NCBI RefSeq assembly: GCF_003075075.1
Contig: NZ_QCYM01000004.1
Span: 186,001-250,000 of the forward strand
Source: Labrenzia sp. 011
Lineage (GTDB): Bacteria; Pseudomonadota; Alphaproteobacteria; Rhizobiales; Stappiaceae
DNA: 64,000 bases
Direction of reading: 5' to 3'
Shown: positions 23,384 through 32,642 of the stretch, one piece after another
How positions within the stretch are numbered: the first letter of the stretch is position 1
Layout of the letters: every line of letters begins with the position of its first letter
Translations under genes and position numbers: made by a program
Notes under the pieces: model-generated
What the model saw: only the letters and a program-made list of their open reading frames with translations
Told to the model about the DNA's origin: nothing
Databases searched by the model: none

Positions 23384-28111
<4,728 letters not shown>

Positions 28112-28172
28112 GTGCGCCCTCACTGTTAACCCCAGTGCCCCCGCGGCACGAAGCGTCCGGTTCCGTTCGGGT

Positions 28173-28192
28173 CGCATTCCTTCAAGAATGCG
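28173..28192 (-). repeat. Hairpin in the gltB leader
   Basis: CGCATTC and GAATGCG form a perfect 7-base stem around a 6-base loop (CTTCAA), about 62 bases upstream of the gltB start. There is no T-run after it in either direction, so it is not an obvious terminator. It might be part of a leader structure or an operator. Confidence 0.4.
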
Positions 28193-28401
28193 GCTCGGTG
28201 AACCCTGGCTTTCCTGCCCCGGCTCTGTTGTTGTATTTACTGCGCCGGTCTACCAAAACAAACCGTCACAATGACACAGCGGAGATTCCGCTGTCGAAAC
28301 TTTTCGTCTCGCCTCTTCGCCGACCCTCCCCGGGTCCGCGAACGGTCTGCCTGTGCGCTGCTCCTGGCCCGGCATTGTAGCAGGCCGGTAGTGCTGCAGC
28401 A

Positions 28402-28426
28402 AATGGGACAGTAACCCTGTCCTATT
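28402..28426. repeat. Ten-base-pair hairpin in the gltB/bufA1 gap
   Basis: AATGGGACAG (28402-28411) pairs with CTGTCCTATT (28417-28426), with one G-T pair, around the loop TAACC. CTGCA and TGCAG flank it outside (28394-28398 and 28426-28430). It lies 293 bases before bufA1 and 291 bases before gltB, in the middle of the gap, and could be an operator for a regulator of either unit. Confidence 0.45.
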
Positions 28427-28718
28427 GCAGGCGGCGCGAACATGACAGATTTCTCAGTCAGGAGCAAGTGTGTTTCTTGTAGCAGGTATTATAATTGTTT
28501 CGCGCAAAAAGTGCCAATCGTCTGGAACGGTCGATTCCGGATGTGTTTGAGAAAGAATCTTGCGTCCCTTAAAGTTTTCTTAGTGCGGGGCGCAGAAGAG
28601 TAACAGGCGTTTGATTTCCTATTTATCGACAAGACGCTCATGTAATCCTTGTGAACCGGGCTGCCCTCCAGGCGCCGCGGCTCATTCAGGATCCGAGGAA
28701 CGACCAGAGGAGTTCGAG

Positions 28719-29018
28719 ATGAATCATAAAACGATGTCTGCGGCGATCGTCGCCGGTGCCGTGGCAACCGCGGTTGCCGGCCTGTCGTCCACCGTGCCGG
28801 CCAATGCACAGGCCAAGGAGAAATGCTATGGCGTTTCCCTCAAGGGCCAGAACGACTGCAAGGCCGGCGCCGGGACCACCTGTGCCGGAACATCAACAGT
28901 CGATTACCAGGGCAATGCCTGGACGCTGGTTCCCAAGGGAACCTGCGAAACCATGGACGTACCGGGCGATCGTCACGGCTCCCTGAGCGAACTGAAGCGG
29001 GACCTGCCGAAGGCCTGA
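28719..29018 (+). CDS. bufA1: Bufferin-type RiPP precursor (DUF2282), secreted, four cysteines
   Basis: This 99-residue small protein is the precursor of a post-translationally modified, metal-binding peptide of the bufferin/GigP type. The ATG at 28719 has AGAGGAG at 28706-28712; an ATG at 28611 would add an implausible N-terminus. A signal peptide (residues 1-30, ending in the AxA motif AlaAsnAla) directs it to the periplasm. The mature chain has four cysteines at 36, 47, 55 and 76 in the DUF2282 pattern EKCYGV, NDCK, TTCAG and PKGTCE. In the studied family, the MNIO enzyme encoded next converts cysteines to thiooxazole-type heterocycles that bind copper. The C-terminal tail after Cys76 is polar. 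It heads a four-gene operon. Which cysteines are modified here is unknown. Confidence 0.88.
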
Positions 29019-29089
29019 CCCTGATGCATTCGGGCAGGCGGACTTGCTGCTGCCTGCCCGAAATTCGCTTTTCCGCTGTGGAGATTGCC

Positions 29090-29986
29090 ATGTTTTCCGC
29101 GTCCCAGCCGTCGCATAAGTCCCGTGTCGATGCCCGGATCCCGGCACGTGCCGGAGCCGGCCTCAAGCCGGACCATATCGCCGACATTCTGGCGGAGCGC
29201 GCGGACATCGGCTTCTTCGAGGTGCATGCGGAGAACTACATGGGGGCGGGCGGCCCGCCGCACCGGCAGCTTGAAGCCATCCGGCAGGACTATCCGCTTT
29301 CGCTCCATGGGGTGGGGCTGTCGATCGGTGCGGAACAGGCCCTGGACAAGGCGCATCTCCAGCGCCTGGCCGAGCTCAACCGGCGCTACGAGCCCGGGCT
29401 GTTTTCCGAACATCTGGCCTGGTCGACCCATGACACGACCTATTTCAACGATCTTCTGCCCGTGCCCTATGACGTGGAGACGCTTCGGCGGGTGTGCTCG
29501 CATATCGACCAGGTTCAGGACACCGTCGGGCGGCGCATGCTGCTGGAAAATCCCTCGACCTATGTCGCCTTCGAACAAAGCACGATGAGCGAGCTGGACT
29601 TCCTGAAGGAAGTCGCGCGCCGGACCGGCTGCGGACTGCTTCTCGACGTCAACAATGTCCATGTTTCCTGCACCAATCATCAGCGTTCCGCCGAGGCGTA
29701 TCTTGCGGAGTTTCCCGTTGACCAGGTCGGCGAAATTCATCTGGGCGGCCATGCGCCGGATACGGATGACGAAGGCCGGCCGCTGCTGATCGACGCCCAC
29801 GACCGGGAAGTCGATGACGCGGTCTGGAAACTGTACGAGAGTGTCATTGGCCAGATCGGGCCGCTGCCGACCCTGATCGAGTGGGACAACGAGGTTCCTG
29901 CCTGGCCCGTCCTTCATGCCGAGGTCGTCGCAGCGGAAGGGATACTTTCCCGGGCCGTGGAACCCGGCCTCAGGCGCGCGGTGTGA
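29090..29986 (+). CDS. bufB1: MNIO (DUF692) multinuclear iron oxidative enzyme, bufferin maturase
   Basis: This 298-residue TIM-barrel enzyme belongs to the DUF692/MNIO family, whose members use a mixed-valence di- or tri-iron centre to modify cysteines of RiPP precursors. The start at ATG 29090 ([11 protein letters not shown]) has GTGGAG just upstream; the open frame extends further but has no support. Conserved metal and core residues are in [63 protein letters not shown] and IEWDNEVP. The gene lies 71 bases after the DUF2282 precursor and two bases before the DUF2063 gene. By family knowledge it would act in the cytoplasm on the bufA1 product before export. Assignment to MNIO is firm; the exact reaction is inferred. 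Confidence 0.93.
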
Positions 29987-29988
29987 GA

Positions 29989-30801
29989 ATGACCGCGCCA
30001 AAGTCTCCTTCCGATACCGCCGATGCGACCTGCAAGGGGAACCGCATCGGGGCCGGGGCCTTCAGCCGGGCCCTGCTGGATCCGGACGCACCGCCGCCGG
30101 CGGGGCTTGTCGGTCCCGATGGCAAGGCGGCTGGAAAGCGCTTCAATGTCTACCGCAACAATGTGATCGTCAGTCTCTGCGAGGCCCTCGAACAGACCTT
30201 TCCCGCGATCGTGACCCTGGTGGGGGATGCCTATTTCAAGGCCCTTTCCCGCGCCTTCGTGGTCGACCATCCGCCGCAGACGCCGGTGCTCATGTGGTAT
30301 GGCGGGGCCTTCGCCGGTTTTCTCGAAGAGTTTCCGCCGCTGGCGGCCTATCCCTATCTGGCGGATGTGGCGCGGGTGGAATGGGCCTGGCTCCAGGCCT
30401 TTCACGCGGCGGATGCCCCGCCGCTCGACCCGGCCGTCCTGAGCTCGCTTGCGCCGGAAGAGGTCGCTTCGGTCCGATTCGTCCGGCATCCGGCGGCGGA
30501 TATTGTCACGTCGAAATGGCCGGTTCTGGATCTTGTGCGCGCCAACCGGTTTGCGGAGGATGCGGCCGGTGTGGATCTCGACGTGCCCCAGGCGGTTCTG
30601 GTGACGCGGCCGGAACTGGATGTTGAAGTGTTGTTGTTGCGGCCGGGGGCGGATGTGTTCCTGCGTGCCTTGTTCGAGGGGGCCTCCCTGGGGGAAGCCG
30701 CCGCAAGGGCGCTGGACATGACGCCGGAGTTTTCGCTGGCAGACAGCTTGTCGGACTGCCTTTCGGGCGGTGCGTTTACCGCCGTGGAAGGTCACGGATA
30801 G
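29989..30801 (+). CDS. bufC1: DUF2063 protein, MNIO partner (RRE-like)
   Basis: This 270-residue cytoplasmic protein has an N-terminal DUF2063 domain (about residues 25-125, with FNVYRNNVIVSLCEALEQTFP and FVVDHPPQTPVLMWYG) and a C-terminal domain (about 140-265) with the winged-helix-like character of a RiPP recognition element. In related systems it binds the precursor and delivers it to the MNIO enzyme. The ATG at 29989 follows the MNIO stop by two bases, so translation is coupled. It resembles BufC1 of Caulobacter and GigB/GigA-type genes of Cupriavidus, by family rather than by measured identity. The two-domain reading is from the sequence pattern and not from a structure search. Confidence 0.88.
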   Translation: MTAPKSPSDTADATCKGNRIGAGAFSRALLDPDAPPPAGLVGPDGKAAGKRFNVYRNNVIVSLCEALEQTFPAIVTLVGDAYFKALSRAFVVDHPPQTPVLMWYGGAFAGFLEEFPPLAAYPYLADVARVEWAWLQAFHAADAPPLDPAVLSSLAPEEVASVRFVRHPAADIVTSKWPVLDLVRANRFAEDAAGVDLDVPQAVLVTRPELDVEVLLLRPGADVFLRALFEGASLGEAAARALDMTPEFSLADSLSDCLSGGAFTAVEGHG

Positions 30802-30849
30802 TATTGATGAGCCCGGAAGATCCGGGGTGGCTTCAAACAGGGGGATTTC

Positions 30850-31434
30850 ATGGGTGCGCTGATCGGATTTTTCGTAAGACTGTACACGCTGGTGTTCGGA
30901 GCGCTGGAGCGCCTGACCAATGGCTGGTTTCTGGGGCTGGCGTCCCGGTTCATCTTCGCGGCGATCCTGCTGCAGTTCTTCTGGAATTCCGCGCTGACGA
31001 AAATCGGCGGAAACGTGATGAACATCTTCACGCCCACGGCGGGCGCCTATGCGCAGATGCTGCCGAAACTGATGGAGCAGGTCAGTTACGACACCAGTCA
31101 GATTGCCTTCTTCCCCTACGGTCTGATGGTCCTTCTGGGCACCTGGGGCGAATTCATCCTCCCGGTGATGGTGGTCGTCGGCCTGTTCACCCGATTCGCC
31201 AGCCTCGGCATGATCGTGTTCATCTGTGTCATGTCCTATGTGGATGTCTACGGACACGGGGCGGATGCCAAGACGATCGGCGCGCTGTTCGACGGCGAAC
31301 CCTATGCGATCATTGCGGACGACCGGCTGCTGTGGATCTTCCTGCTGCTGGTGCCGACGCTCAAGGGGCCGGGGGTCGTTTCCCTCGACTGGCTGCTCGG
31401 GCGCTACTACCGCAAGCGGGAAATGTATTACTAG
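30850..31434 (+). CDS. DoxX family membrane protein of the bufferin operon
   Basis: This 194-residue inner-membrane protein has about four hydrophobic segments and the DoxX pattern ASRFIFAAILLQFFWNSAL, LGTWGEFILPVMVVVGLFTRFA. DoxX proteins are the last gene of gig and bufferin operons, where they are thought to help redox or metal handling at the membrane. It begins at ATG 30850 after CAGGGGG, 48 bases after the DUF2063 stop, on the same strand. It has a longer central loop (residues about 128-155, with HGADAKTIGALFDGEPY) than short DoxX proteins. A 149-base gap then leads to the threonine aldolase gene, which is not part of this system. No symbol is assigned because its naming differs between species. 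Confidence 0.88.
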   Translation: MGALIGFFVRLYTLVFGALERLTNGWFLGLASRFIFAAILLQFFWNSALTKIGGNVMNIFTPTAGAYAQMLPKLMEQVSYDTSQIAFFPYGLMVLLGTWGEFILPVMVVVGLFTRFASLGMIVFICVMSYVDVYGHGADAKTIGALFDGEPYAIIADDRLLWIFLLLVPTLKGPGVVSLDWLLGRYYRKREMYY

Positions 31435-31583
31435 GGCTTTCTCCGGGGTTCCTGCGGGTGCGGACCGTTCCGCATCCAGGGAGTCGGTGAGGATTTCACC
31501 GCAGGGATGCCGGCCGCAAGGCCGCGGTTTCCGCCGGCCGGAAATCGGTTGCCGCCCGTGCGAACAGATGCTTAAACCGGTCC

Positions 31584-32642
31584 ATGAACTTCGCAAGCGA
31601 CAATTGGGCGGGTGCGGCTCCGGCGGTGATGTCGGCGCTGGCCCGTCATAATTCCGGTTTCGCACCGGCTTACGGCACGGATCCGCTGACGGACCGTATT
31701 TCGGCAAAATTCAACGAGATCTTCGAGCGGGAGGTGGCTGTCTTTTTCGTGGCCACGGGCTCCGCTGCCAATTCGCTTGCGCTGGCCGCCTGTGCGCGGC
31801 CGGGCGGTGTCATCTTCTGTCACGACGATGCCCATATCCGGGTGGATGAATGCAACTGCCCGGAATTCATGACCGGCGGCGGCAAACTGGCCGGCGTCCC
31901 GGGGGCGGACGGCAAGATCACGCCACAGGGCCTTCACGAGGCGATGGCGGCTTATCCGGACGGGGTCGTGCACCACGGCCAGGTGGCGACGGTCTCGATC
32001 AGCCAGGCCACGGAAAGCGGCACGATCTACACCCTGGAGGAGATCTCCGAGCTCAGGGAGGTTGCCCGGTCACGCGGCGTGCCCCTGCATATGGATGGCG
32101 CGCGCTTTGCCAACGCCCTCGTCACGCTTGGCTGCACGCCAGCGGACATGACCTGGAAGGCGGGCGTCGACGTGTTGTCCTTCGGGGCGACCAAGAATGG
32201 TTGCTGGTGTGCCGAGGCGGTGGTCTTTTTCGACCCGGAGGCCGCAAGGGGATTCGAATATCTGCGCAAGCGCGGCGGGCACCTGTTTTCCAAGAGCCGC
32301 TTTGTGGCCGCGCAGCTCGACGGCTATTTCGAGGATGACACATGGCTTGCGGCGGCCGGGCACGCCAACGAAATGGCCACCAGGCTGGCTGAAGGTATCC
32401 GGGAGCGGGGCGGGCGGACCGCCTGGGCCGTGGAAGCCAACGAGGTGTTTCCGATCCTGAAGCGCCGGCAGTTCGAGGCGCTGGAAGCGGCGGGCGCCCG
32501 GCTCTACGAATGGCCCGCGAAGGACCTTTCCTCGGCCACCGCGCCGGCGGAAGATGAAATCTGCCTGCGCATGGTCACCAGTTTCGCAACCTCCGAGGAG
32601 GATGTGGCCACCTTCCTGAAGGTGCTGTCGGAAGCCGGTTGA
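31584..32642 (+). CDS. Low-specificity L-threonine aldolase (PLP-dependent)
   Basis: This 352-residue cytoplasmic enzyme splits L-threonine or allo-threonine to glycine and acetaldehyde. It has the aldolase fold-type I pattern: ATGSAANSLAL near the PLP phosphate cup, HMDGARFANALVTLG (PLP-binding Asp), and FGATKNGCWCAEAVVFF with the Schiff-base lysine. The start at ATG 31584 (MNFASDNWAG) matches the usual beginning of LtaE/GlyI-like proteins. A serine-hydroxymethyltransferase-like or phenylserine aldolase role is possible, since specificity cannot be read from motifs. It has its own 149-base upstream gap after DoxX and ends just before a hairpin terminator of the opposite Hsp20 gene. Confidence 0.92.
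   Translation: MNFASDNWAGAAPAVMSALARHNSGFAPAYGTDPLTDRISAKFNEIFEREVAVFFVATGSAANSLALAACARPGGVIFCHDDAHIRVDECNCPEFMTGGGKLAGVPGADGKITPQGLHEAMAAYPDGVVHHGQVATVSISQATESGTIYTLEEISELREVARSRGVPLHMDGARFANALVTLGCTPADMTWKAGVDVLSFGATKNGCWCAEAVVFFDPEAARGFEYLRKRGGHLFSKSRFVAAQLDGYFEDDTWLAAAGHANEMATRLAEGIRERGGRTAWAVEANEVFPILKRRQFEALEAAGARLYEWPAKDLSSATAPAEDEICLRMVTSFATSEEDVATFLKVLSEAG

Follow-up and report, generated by a model that had tools for sequence, protein, structure and literature searches.

Among the signal-peptide-bearing MNIO precursors of a published survey, the Buf1 (DUF2282) bufferins are the largest cluster (PMC12452194). As described there, the precursor carries a Sec signal, a disulphide joins its first and last cysteines, and the product acts as a copper sequestrant in the periplasm and enhances growth in copper excess; the central cysteines are turned into thiooxazoles by the MNIO enzyme and its PME1 partner (PMC12452194; PMC13097082). 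In Caulobacter vibrioides (C. crescentus) the genes CC3254-CC3257 encode, in this order, DUF2282, DUF692/MNIO, DUF2063 and DoxX proteins (PMC3511200), the precursor having four conserved cysteines (PMC12452194), and the operon is served by a sigma-F promoter, GTAACC-N16-CGAA, under restraint by NrsF (PMC3511200). The equivalent four genes, in matching order, lie at 28719-31434 of a 64,000-nucleotide stretch of the genome of the marine bacterium Labrenzia sp. 011 (contig NZ_QCYM01000004.1, positions 186,001 to 250,000; hereafter the window), and they are exactly the core set that the survey gives for Buf1 (PMC12452194). The explanation of this locus that we favour, as a whole and with high confidence, is that it is a complete Buf1 operon producing a copper-buffering peptide, and that its control is probably not by sigma-F but through a 25-base element upstream of bufA. 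The features concerned are:

28601-28625, + strand: conserved upstream element TNAC-N6-TTGATTTCC-NN-TTKA, proposed part of a bufferin-specific operator or promoter of a non-sigma-F class
28719-29018, + strand: bufA, Buf1 (DUF2282) bufferin precursor, 99 residues, Cys36/47/55/76
28719-28808, + strand: putative Sec signal peptide of BufA, residues 1-30, as read from the sequence
29090-29986, + strand: bufB, MNIO bufferin maturase, 298 residues (NF050167, PF05114, invariant residues)
29989-30801, + strand: bufC, DUF2063/PME-type 1 partner protein, 270 residues (PF09836, fold match)
30850-31434, + strand: doxX, DoxX-family membrane protein, 194 residues (PF07681)

The four proteins were searched against Pfam, with its curated cut-offs, and against NCBIfam models. 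BufA matches PF10048 (DUF2282) at 90.2 bits (cut-off 22.4); BufB passes both PF05114, MbnB_TglH_ChrH (353.6 bits, cut-off 25), and the NCBIfam "bufferin maturase" model MNIO_BufB, NF050167 (389.2 bits, cut-off 310); BufC matches PF09836 (DUF2063) at 88.5 bits (cut-off 27.2) and DoxX PF07681 at 27.2 bits (cut-off 23.6). A first-pass annotation of this DNA had proposed a bufferin/gig-type operon of four compact genes in one direction: a secreted-type DUF2282 precursor of 99 residues with cysteines at 36, 47, 55 and 76, a DUF692/MNIO enzyme, a DUF2063 protein starting two bases further on, and a DoxX protein. Its coordinates are exact—the bufC ATG does stand two bases past the bufB stop—and the family models bear out each of the four assignments, as gene order, the invariant residues of BufB and the fold of BufC, described below, bear out the operon's identity. 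Where it presented the locus as a novelty of unknown metal and modified residues, it was right that the chemistry of this locus is unmeasured but overstated the case, since metal and modified residues are already described for Buf1: the operon adds one ordinary member to a large published family.

Gene order was compared in 80 related loci, kept from a larger number matching the BufB query. In 79 of them bufA, bufB and bufC follow one another on one strand; the exception, L057, lies near a contig end and begins only with bufB, so that bufA could not show. An arrangement this constant is not due to chance. DoxX, frequent but not universal in Buf1 clusters, is present here and has a match (E 1e-3, whole locus, both strands) in 55 of the 80 loci. 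Cys36, Cys47, Cys55 and Cys76 of BufA are aligned in 83/83 related precursor open reading frames (ORFs), these having been picked by similarity. To the eye, the N-terminus of BufA has a basic start and then a hydrophobic run, with A-N-A at residues 28-30 and Cys36 as the sixth residue beyond, just as the annotation had placed its AxA site; if cut after ANA, the mature peptide would comprise 69 residues, from Gln31.

Ten residues of BufB (H73, H108, E153, D186, N189, H217, D235, H237, E264 and D266) are invariant in 81/81 sequences, the window's included. BufB aligns (E 2e-36) with structure 3bww, an MNIO closely related to HvfB (72% identical), in which N175, D242 and H244 are essential (PMC13419390). 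In our alignment N189 falls on position 175, and D235 and H237 on 241 and 243, this latter pair in a weak second segment; the three are presumably the counterparts of the essential HvfB residues, and family motifs make the remaining invariant residues candidate metal or catalytic ligands. The structure model of BufC is confident, with a predicted local distance difference test score (pLDDT) of 92.6, and has three significant PDB matches: chain A of 8hci (E 4.1e-6) and of 8hi7, both TglHI complexes, and 3dee, NGO1945 (E 1.6e-5). Chain A is presumably the partner, TglI, because in 8hci it is chain D that is the MNIO, and the matched proteins are named as MNIO partners in PMC12452194. PME-type 1 partners combine DUF2063 with an RRE-type fold, 3dee being the reference DUF2063-RRE structure, and are mostly of 250-260 residues; BufC, with 270 residues, its PF09836 match and its matches to 3dee and 8hci_A, is one of them. 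By sequence alone, neither BufC nor BufA had a meaningful match among solved structures.

Certain results weigh against so close an identification. Three NCBIfam models are missed: BufA scores 25.5 bits with BufA2 (cut-off 60), BufC 54.4 with HvfC (cut-off 142) and DoxX 23.3 with HvfX (cut-off 80). The AlphaFold model of BufA, with a mean pLDDT of 41.8, is of no use for the disulphide.

The host genome (5.1 Mb, 99.9% complete) has a single MNIO gene and a single DUF2282 gene, both in the buf operon. The closest match to BufB in the named genome collection, from which records of the host itself were possibly excluded, is in Roseibium marinum (86% identity), and the host, an alphaproteobacterium, is therefore Roseibium-like. 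We extended the comparison to 87 whole genomes of the window's family, a set that includes the window genome and part of the sample from which the upstream pattern described below was learnt. A DUF2282 gene is present in 72 of the 87; the precursor gene is thus near-fixed in the family. With this prevalence, with all four reading frames intact and with the catalytic-type residues of BufB unvaried, we give almost no credence to the operon being degenerate or unused. The distribution has one marked gap, a genus in which DUF2282 is absent from 13 of 14 genomes; its lone carrier, G084, has NrsF and a sigma-F-type operon, a pattern that looks like loss of the bufferin followed by later gain. Copy number also varies: four loci (L020, L067, L078, L080) have two DUF2282 precursor ORFs ahead of one MNIO gene, and four family genomes (G015, G017, G024, G025) have a second MNIO gene yet one DUF2282 match each. 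The second MNIO in these genomes may serve another precursor.

The course of events that we propose for the operon's products is modelled on Buf1 of C. vibrioides. BufB, a multinuclear iron enzyme, would be held to BufA by BufC in the cytoplasm and would oxidise Cys47 and Cys55 to thiooxazoles; the modified BufA would then be exported via Sec, shedding about its first 30 residues; a Cys36-Cys76 disulphide would close, and the peptide would bind copper in the periplasm and buffer the excess metal, with DoxX as a putative membrane accessory.

Control of the operon appears to be another matter. The Caulobacter-type subgroup combines an NrsF gene with a sigma-F promoter; in the window's genome NrsF was not found, and no exact GTAAC-N16-18-CGAA stands upstream of bufA. 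The gap between gltB and bufA, of 541 bases, contains two conserved blocks, the second of which starts at 28600 and travels with buf. It holds the 25-base element, which lies 94-118 bp ahead of the bufA start. The gap-free logo of 57 distinct sites reads T-N-AC, TTTGATTTCC and TTKA in turn, followed by a CA (C 80%, A 96%; 28639-28640 in the window) 39-40 bases past the block start; conservation fades within about 45 bases and the surrounding sequence diverges.

We scanned the regions upstream of bufA in 110 loci (L002-L111); dropping L057 and L082, which have no bufA core, and L023, which is too short, left 107, and removing four duplicates left 103 distinct regions. The element was found in 57 of these and an exact sigma-F site (GTAAC-N16 or N17-CGAA) in 28; 18 had neither, and none had both. 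Of the 15 fixed positions, none was substituted in 32 of the element sites, one in 8, two in 12 and three in 5. Shuffled regions (2140 shuffles) gave the element in 0.8% and the sigma-F site in 0.4% per region.

Since the pattern had been learnt from part of the same loci, the 87 family genomes were searched in addition. They contain 59 exact 25-base matches, one per genome, all of them 194-365 bp from a DUF2282 match. Allowing one mismatch added 7 at bufA and 11 elsewhere; a control with the pattern reversed matched 7 times altogether. The element, exact or with one mismatch, is thus at bufA in 66 of the 72 DUF2282-bearing genomes, those without it being G005, G008, G009, G040, G048 and G084. 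A looser scan found it in 29 of the 30 family loci examined, including those of G008 and G009 (G005, G040 and G048 being outside that set). A 22-base form of the element, searched with up to two mismatches, has no second match in the window's own genome. The lack of further such copies there, and of further exact copies in the family genomes, speaks against a general promoter type. Control of the operon most likely runs through the element.

The position of the element admits another interpretation. Of the 53 loci in which a slightly stricter scan found it, 52 have its first base 87-146 bases ahead of the bufA start (274 in L020). This is within reach of a 5' leader, and the element might be a riboswitch or small-RNA target rather than a DNA site. 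We think this improbable: a comparison of 27900-31800 with Rfam, with E values up to 1, found nothing, 20 aligned leaders yielded no consensus fold (RNAalifold energy 0), and the conserved part is confined to those 45 or so bases amid diverged sequence.

The distribution of NrsF follows the two kinds of upstream region. Among the family genomes NrsF occurs in 1/87, namely G084, in which bufA lacks the element and is preceded by an exact sigma-F site. NrsF was also looked for in 46 genomes behind other loci, 11 of the 18 loci with neither signal being left out, as were L037 and L071 (same genome as L033). It was present in 26/26 genomes of the sigma-F-site class, and in 1/13 of the element class, in which one genome (that of L036) is also family member G001. 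Absences are softer throughout these 46 genomes, whose completeness is not given and some of which are metagenome bins. An observation on the sigma-F class is that one contig of Afipia strain 1NLS2 has three separate Buf1 operons (L033, L037, L071), each with an exact site.

Loose resemblances to the sigma-F promoter do occur in the window. A motif at 28411 (GTAACC...CGAA) was rejected as a sigma-F site, its spacer being 20 rather than 16 and its position inside a palindrome next to gltB. Scanning the whole window with two mismatches allowed gave 48 matches against 38 expected, so that loose matches carry no meaning.

Several results count against a clean division by the element. Five of the 57 sites match only with three substitutions, and the 57 regions, being those of related bacteria, do not count as independent events; 18 of the 103 regions have neither signal, and NrsF is present in 5 of the 7 genomes tested from among these. 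L020 has the element and its genome has NrsF. In 5 of 58 loci the element escaped the stricter scan, four of the five (L017, L052, L059 and L061) being counted by the looser one. A one-substitution scan for sigma-F near the window's bufA picks out two strings, which lie in the gltB palindrome and in the bufA gene respectively and which we take for chance. Finally, the role of the element is a proposal drawn from its conservation.

Taken with these reservations, the window operon is probably not under sigma-F and NrsF, unlike that of Caulobacter, and Buf1 operons seem to be regulated in two or more ways, the window's not being that of Caulobacter. The split is strong as a pattern, its mechanism untried. 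The first-pass annotation, sound on the operon, missed this difference in the control region from the Caulobacter model. No second regulatory class of Buf1 is described in the literature searched, which is weak evidence of absence, the name NrsF being shared with a human factor; nor is one described in what PMC12452194 gives on regulation and promoters. The operon is ordinary, its control probably a second regulatory class, apparently undescribed; a short, testable DNA element splits bufferin operons in two.

In the form to which we incline, with some reserve, there are two Buf1 classes, one of which, that of Stappiaceae, Hoeflea and relatives, dispenses with sigma-F and NrsF and has a dedicated element plus CA at fixed spacing, read by a factor for which this operon is the only recognisable site. 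The boldest form of this proposal, put forward because no regulator gene adjoins the operon, is that an operon product, for example BufC, governs its own genes. A transcription factor role had once been predicted for the BufC family.

The split implies that the signal inducing bufferin in the window's family is not the sigma-F chromate and cadmium response of Caulobacter. Dichromate and cadmium induce the sigma-F bufferin operons of that bacterium (PMC3511200), PMC12452194 mentions both MerC-bufferin fusions and gig operons induced by gold, and an operon without a sigma-F link may answer to a different signal; service against gold, cadmium, chromate or another metal stress, not copper, would be an alternative. 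It seems to us unlikely, given that the characterised Buf1 chelates copper and helps growth in copper excess (PMC12452194) and that the window precursor keeps the full DUF2282 cysteine pattern.

The palindrome mentioned above, GGACAG-N5-CTGTCC at 28406-28424, is the single match to this pattern in the host genome. Considered as a buf operator, it was rejected: with up to 3 substitutions it stands beside gltB in all 27 loci (of the 80) that have a gltB match, including six in which the aldolase gene described below lies between gltB and buf. It is probably an operator or leader element of gltB. A near-consensus sigma-70 promoter faces gltB at 28517-28488 on the - strand (TTGGCA, 18 nt, TATAAT; 11/12), and similar sequence is present in Roseibium relatives among those listed.

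Within the operon, the spacer between bufA and bufB contains one further feature:

29029-29062, + strand: 13-bp hairpin, possible attenuator or mRNA stabiliser

The spacer 29019-29085 folds with z = -3.39, none of 200 shuffles being equally stable. Among bufA-bufB spacers of at least 30 nt, 27/103 have z < -3 and 40/103 z < -2, in a survey that kept duplicate loci, had no control spacers and, at tandem-precursor loci, spans the second bufA. A hairpin scan of related loci, which required a T-rich tail, is suggestive only, and terminators are predicted in the region no more often than by chance (4 against 3.5 expected). These folds give hints of a recurrent device that could hold precursor mRNA above enzyme mRNA.

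Downstream of the operon, at 31584-32642, is a threonine-aldolase-like gene of the pyridoxal phosphate-dependent kind. A relative lies downstream of bufB in 20/80 loci and upstream in 8/80, mostly adjacent (that of L025 is about 3 kb off); aldolase gene and buf operon seem to stay paired through a rearrangement.

Among known systems, PMC12452194 counts the gig operons as bufferin gene clusters. They are found in Cupriavidus metallidurans and Legionella pneumophila, the Legionella one reportedly resembling its Cupriavidus counterpart (PMC5413113); named for gold induction, they are likened to the window operon by description only. Methanobactin (MbnABC) and pearlin (TglHI) systems likewise pair an enzyme of the MNIO superfamily with a partner, and it is chain A of TglHI that the BufC fold matches, but their precursors differ and have no Sec signal, and their products differ too (PMC12452194); BufB scores 52.2 with the MbnB model, under the cut-off of 325. 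In fontiphorin (FonABC), oxazolin (HvfABC) and gonophorin, too, an MNIO and a PME1 partner form 5-thiooxazole on cysteine, and these have been proposed to make up, with the bufferins, a single class, the captophorins; their precursors, however, are Lys-Cys (EGKCG) repeat peptides and not DUF2282 proteins (PMC13097082), and BufB scores 233.5 with the HvfB model, under its cut-off of 360. The Caulobacter operon matches the window's in its genes, their order and the four cysteines of the precursor. The two part company in their control, that of Caulobacter lying with sigma-F and NrsF while the window operon, with no exact sigma-F site and no NrsF in its genome, has the upstream element in their place.

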